From a bacterium (GTDB lineage Bacteria; Bacillota_I; Bacilli_A; Izemoplasmatales; Izemoplasmataceae): 34,209 bases of DNA. Under the pieces are notes generated by a model that worked only from the letters and a program-made list of their open reading frames with translations, did not search any database and was not told the DNA's origin. The DNA lies in assembly GCA_018400875.1 (NCBI GenBank), contig JAGYLV010000006.1, positions 1-34,209 on the forward strand, read 5' to 3'. Of the stretch, positions 31,343 to 31,420 are shown in pieces; within the stretch, counting starts at the first letter, position 1; every line of letters starts with the position of its first letter. The position numbers were made by a program, and so were the translations under genes.

Positions 31343-31386
31343 AAAAAAAGGTCTCCCTTTTGTGGGAGACCTTATTTGAAGAGCCC
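31343..31386 (-). promoter_or_regulatory. pyrG leader attenuator with GGGC start (reiterative-transcription type)
   Basis: The predicted transcript begins GGGCUCUUC at 31386, reaches the terminator stem AAGGUCUCCC / GGGAGACCUU (31373-31364 and 31357-31348, 6-base loop) and then UUUUUUU, all before the pyrG ribosome-binding site. In Bacillus pyrG, low CTP stalls polymerase at the C of GGGC, extra Gs are added, and the poly(G) tail pairs with the C/U-rich 5' arm of the terminator, letting transcription through. The same parts are visible here: the start sequence GGGC, the UCUCCC arm, and the U tract. It may also end rpoE transcripts. Confidence 0.8.
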
Positions 31387-31392
31387 GATTAA

Positions 31393-31420
31393 ATTATATC
31401 AAAAATTCGGATTTGTGGAA
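31393..31420 (-). promoter_or_regulatory. Promoter for pyrG
   Basis: Minus strand consensus -10 TATAAT (31398-31393) six bases before GGGC at 31386; the -35 is weak (TTCCAC at 31420-31415, 16-base spacer). It lies in the 106-base gap after rpoE. Confidence 0.75.

Follow-up and report, generated by a model that had tools for sequence, protein, structure and literature searches.

The pyrG gene examined here lies in a window of 34,209 nucleotides from a bacterium of the order Izemoplasmatales (assembly of about 0.66 Mb, 81.5% complete), where a promoter and an intrinsic terminator both precede the start codon. This arrangement raises the question of how the promoter can serve a gene whose transcripts meet a terminator before reaching it. 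The leader is very probably a protein-free, CTP-sensing attenuator of pyrG that acts by reiterative transcription.

Anatomy of the pyrG leader

Read directly on the minus strand, the elements follow one another in the order TTCCAC-N16-TATAAT-TTAATC-GGGCTCTTCAAAT-AAGGTCTCCC-ACAAAA-GGGAGACCTT-TTTTTATTT...GGAGG...ATG. The features of the locus are the following:

31429-32070, minus strand: rpoE, RNA polymerase delta subunit, the upstream neighbour (TIGR04567, 65 bits, cut-off 42)
31415-31420, minus strand: possible weak -35 hexamer TTCCAC, 16 nt 5′ of the -10 (read directly)
31393-31401, minus strand: extended -10 element TGATATAAT (TGaTATAAT), with TATAAT at 31398-31393 (read directly)
31383-31386, minus strand: GGGC, where initiation and slippage are predicted, beginning 7 nt after the -10 and with the C at +4 as the predicted CTP gate
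31364-31370, minus strand: predicted anti-terminator target in the 5′ arm, G plus the pyrimidine tract UCUCCC, which would pair with (G)nC (folding and family comparison)
31348-31373, minus strand: intrinsic terminator/attenuator hairpin AAGGTCTCCC-ACAAAA-GGGAGACCTT (terminator scan and fold)
31341-31349, minus strand: U tract of the terminator (read directly)
31329-31333, minus strand: Shine-Dalgarno sequence GGAGG of pyrG (read directly)
29727-31322, minus strand: pyrG, CTP synthase of 531 aa, the putatively regulated gene, with its ATG at 31322 (TIGR00337, 800 bits; NF003792, 840 bits)

The sequence-only reading had placed TATAAT six bases before GGGC, with a terminator carrying UCUCCC in its 5′ arm close behind, and both placements are borne out. 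On the minus strand, GGGCTCTTC (GGGCTC) begins at 31386, six bases past TATAAT (31398-31393), and 13 bases separate this start from the hairpin, which has the 5′ arm GGUCUCCC and ten pairs. The promoter scan did not pick up the TTCCAC candidate, and the promoter has no good -35 hexamer. The leader is 64 nt long and has a predicted folding energy of -26.4 kcal/mol (z = -5.7 relative to shuffled sequences), and its hairpin is the top-listed terminator-like site of the 28-34 kb region in the terminator scan. The window contains a single TATAAT-N6-GGGC, where 0.04 would be expected by chance, and a fuller promoter-start motif matches once in the 662-kb assembly, with no match for the reversed control. 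When one mismatch is allowed, the promoter-start pattern is no longer unusual in the window; it is therefore the features taken together, and their conservation, that exclude chance, not the pattern alone.

Elsewhere in the window, a 124-aa open reading frame without an NCBIfam match (32067-32441) lies between a pnpS-like kinase gene and rpoE, and a four-tRNA gene cluster and a small SRP RNA occupy 3245-3633 and 14148-14242.

Conservation of the leader

The DNA 5′ of pyrG was read at 43 loci of the window's family, of which 42 primary leaders span 17 genera. In all 42, GGGC lies exactly six bases past a -10 element and is followed by a terminator whose 5′ arm includes a run of pyrimidines; the tally searched for GGGC, and the raw upstream sequences agree without that filter. 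GGGC and the C/U-rich arm, whose retention in close relatives had been named beforehand as a check on the attenuator, are thereby kept throughout. The sole exception among the 43 loci is a second pyrG copy (L041). The base preceding GGG is free (T in 21, C in 12, A in 9), and the tract of the 5′ arm exchanges C and U yet stays free of purines, an exchange that pairing with poly(G) permits. Beyond the family, pyrG of named Bacillus, Halobacillus, Planococcus and Paenibacillus is preceded by the same layout, which is also seen in named Bacillaceae, Paenibacillaceae and Acholeplasmataceae. In 51 relatives, nearly all matches to the GGGC leader motif lie at pyrG; the few before other genes resemble chance or tRNA sequence and were set aside.

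Within the family, leader lengths range from 53 to 92 nt with a median of 68, genomes of about 2 Mb included, and those of Acholeplasmatales are equally short. The sequence-only reading had described the leader as compact, which its 64 nt uphold, and had suggested a minimal form belonging to a streamlined genome, a peculiarity that these lengths contradict. An even smaller layout is seen in family f15 (L287, L289, L290, L294, L298, L321), where the GGGC start adjoins or sits inside the terminator stem. In family f2 of the same order (L049, L182-L185), the whole leader is absent and pyrG follows close behind the upstream gene.

A simpler account would make the hairpin a plain rpoE terminator and the GGGC promoter an ordinary one for pyrG, unregulated and reading past the hairpin. 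The rpoE gene ends 43 nt 5′ of the start, and the hairpin is the sole terminator between the two genes. Against this, a promoter placed upstream of a terminator would be self-defeating without control. In about ten family genomes (L030-L032, L034-L040, L042), moreover, the upstream DNA lacks the acidic rpoE tail by eye, and yet the leader retains GGGC, the six-base spacing and the pyrimidine arm, which speaks against a hairpin that merely terminates rpoE. We regard this account as improbable.

Proposed mechanism and pairing energetics

Under reiterative transcription, synthesis would begin at GGG. When CTP is ample, C would join at +4, the transcript would read GGGCUCUUC..., and the GGUCUCCC/GGGAGACC hairpin would form and stop transcription before pyrG. 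When CTP is scarce, the polymerase would stall at +4, the GGG of the RNA would slip back on the CCC of the template, and extra Gs would be added until C is finally incorporated. The resulting 5′ (G)nC tail would pair with the GUCUCCC tract ahead of the synthesis of the other half of the hairpin, preventing the terminator and allowing pyrG to be read. Transcripts entering from rpoE, without a G tail, should end at the same terminator. Established Bacillus work is our basis for inferring where transcription starts, that it slips, and that it responds to CTP.

When the nascent RNA is folded up to the loop, without the 3′ arm, the templated start gives -4.1 kcal/mol, compared with -12.7 kcal/mol with three extra Gs. 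At three extra Gs, about 87% of the tract is paired to the tail, and pairing saturates at three or four. Tails of AG pair poorly with the window arm in the same kind of calculation (-5.7 kcal/mol). These energies, together with the 42 of 42 family leaders, support the Bacillus-type CTP-sensing attenuator that the sequence-only reading had proposed. The finished terminator (-18.5 kcal/mol) exceeds the anti-terminator (-12.7 kcal/mol) in stability; the switch must therefore be kinetic, with the anti-terminator winning only by forming first, as the Bacillus model would have it.

An attenuator of this shape might instead answer another signal, sensed by a ligand-binding RNA or by a protein (PyrR, for example), and GGGC would then be a bystander; PyrR attenuation does control other Gram-positive pyrimidine genes (PMC4403831). 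A leader of 64 nt, however, leaves little room for a ligand-binding fold, and no family in the Rfam scan covers this stretch. Tail-arm pairing is the only alternative to the hairpin, and what is strictly conserved is the start together with the pyrimidine tract, not a binding loop, so that such a signal is highly unlikely. Equally hard to credit is control at translation, in which the leader bases GCUCUUCAAAU would sequester the Shine-Dalgarno region AUUUGGAGGC, the two being brought together by the hairpin: the minimum-energy fold contains this pairing for the window leader (31329-31385), but by eye it is readable only in the closest relatives, and neither L004, from the window's genus, nor other genera show an evident counterpart. 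Being confined to those relatives, it was set aside as a general mechanism; in the window's genus, the pairing of the leader start with the Shine-Dalgarno region across the terminator could, on the predicted fold, add or replace translational control.

AGAGC-type leaders in relatives

A class-wide survey of sampled DNA 5′ of pyrG, which replaced a loose pattern scan whose matches were mostly chance, finds a different start in the sister family f3 and among the leaders of six further Bacilli families, f5, f7, f12, f13, f14 and f18, of which f7, f12 and f18 are mixed. Leaders with AGAGC or AGAGAGC and a (Y)UCUC arm are distributed as follows:

Family f3: L044, L157-L181
Family f5: L257, L323
Family f7: L263
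Family f12: L266, L269
Family f13: L265, L311, L314, L315, L325, most of L412-L437
Family f14: L246, L247, L251, L316-L318, L330
Family f18: L264, L284, L300, L309, L312, L313, L326-L329, L336, L339, L340

In f3, which belongs to the same order as the window, all 26 readable pyrG leaders start with GAGC, always preceded by A, and the spacing from the -10 to GAGC is six bases in 25 of them and seven in one. The arm tract UUCUCC is present in every f3 leader and invariant at six positions, with its 3′ partners varying between A and G at three; the arm is thus constrained by something beyond the hairpin. In f13, C follows the repeat in 29 of 30 leaders, 17 of the 30 carry the three units AGAGAGC, and (Y)UCUC is contained in the tract of 29. 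The one AGAGAGU leader of f13, L308, reads AGAGAGUC; with U in place of C after the repeat, it would either use UTP as its gate or be a degenerate form.

Also in f13, five ultra-short AGAGC leaders (L414, L421, L426, L432, L434) have a hairpin that, in its 3′ arm, appears to overlap with the Shine-Dalgarno sequence (GAGGUG), beside a U run or the ATG. Their sequences suggest that the 5′ tail exerts either combined or wholly translational control.

Coupling between start and arm

On balance, these sequence comparisons favour the view that Bacilli have, besides the GGGC type, an undescribed class of CTP-sensing pyrG leaders, those with AGAGC or AGAGAGC, which would reiterate AG. Switches to or from GGGC would have given rise to this class several times, the arm changing to match. 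In such leaders, low CTP would cause the AG dinucleotide to be reiterated into a 5′ (AG)n tail, which would pair with the (Y)UCUC tract and block the terminator.

In G-anchored tracts, U occupies both the third and the fifth position in 46 of 47 AGAGC leaders, compared with 63 of 133 GGGC leaders; with f1 and f3 left out, the counts are 20 of 21 and 36 of 92. Counted by genera, again without f1 and f3, UCUC or CUCU occurs in 18/19 AGAGC versus 18/54 GGGC genera (p = 2e-6) and CC in 4/19 versus 51/54 (p = 2e-9), p-values to be read with the genus counts being not independent of kinship. CC is mostly absent from AGAGC-class arms outside f3 and part of f14. U at the third and fifth positions and a UCUC arm are what pairing with ...AGAGAGC requires, with G opposite the +4 C, U opposite A, and C or U opposite G. 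In folds of AGAGC leaders that carry one additional GA unit, or two, tail-arm pairing rises to about 0.75-0.98.

The sixth position of the tract is C in 46 of 47 AGAGC leaders, and 48 of 54 have A at position -2. The G opposite this C is mostly absent from the template at that place, a point in favour of reiterated AG and against a longer templated start; the argument is weaker in f13, where the template encodes the facing G if the start lies two bases earlier. The base before GAGC is A in 54 of 54 AGAGC leaders. Taken as proof of AG slippage, this -1 A was rejected, since A also precedes GGGC in 86 of 149 leaders of related families; it is suggestive only.

A PyrG tree of 124 sequences contains at least seven changes of start class. 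In the tree-based independent-pairs test, only five supported pairs are available, a number too small to reach significance; about two support the coupling of start and arm and almost none oppose it. The f3 arm UUCUCC also occurs in many f1 GGGC leaders, so the coupling in f3 is seen as lost variation, not a new arm. L266 and L433 are exceptions to the coupling.

To our knowledge, regulatory slippage of RNA polymerase is known mainly on single-base runs, and our literature search found no regulatory attenuator using two-base reiteration. If the AG reading is true, the swap of unit from G to AG, with a matching swap of the arm, would mean that the slipping unit itself can evolve. The AGAGC and GGGC leaders form a ready comparative set for the sequence dependence of initial slippage.

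Comparison with known systems

Meng, Turnbough and Switzer are said to have reported the CTP-sensitive reiterative-transcription attenuator of Bacillus subtilis pyrG in 2004. Like that leader, the window leader combines GGGC 6-7 nt after the -10, a terminator before pyrG with a C/U-rich 5′ arm, and rpoE upstream. It differs in size: its 64 nt, with the hairpin 13 nt from the start, compare with mostly about 100-350 nt in Bacillaceae, where the tract lies about 20-60 nt after the start. Its promoter combines a poor -35 with an extended -10, in contrast to the TTGACT of Bacillaceae pyrG promoters. PMC4448216 and PMC4403831 summarise the B. subtilis mechanism. In streptococci, which belong to a different order from the window's Izemoplasmatales, dRNA-seq revealed reiterated Gs at the pyrG start of S. 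agalactiae, where a similar start sequence and a terminator were noted (PMC4448216), and of S. pyogenes (PMC6431027). The S. agalactiae data also show that two-base reiteration by a bacterial polymerase occurs, with AU units (PMC4448216).

The mechanism proposed for the window is therefore of a kind already known from Bacillus and streptococci, and its compact form is ordinary for the whole family. The comparison now places this CTP-stutter attenuator, very probably, in the wall-less Izemoplasmatales, in a leader of 64 nt that is small enough for an oligonucleotide template. The AGAGC-class leaders share with it the gene, the promoter spacing, the C at +4 and a terminator with a pyrimidine arm, and differ in starting with AGAGC or AGAGAGC, not GGGC, and in an arm that alternates as (Y)UCUC(U). 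The new part is this AGAGC class in relatives, set beside a window leader whose own proposed mechanism is of a known kind.
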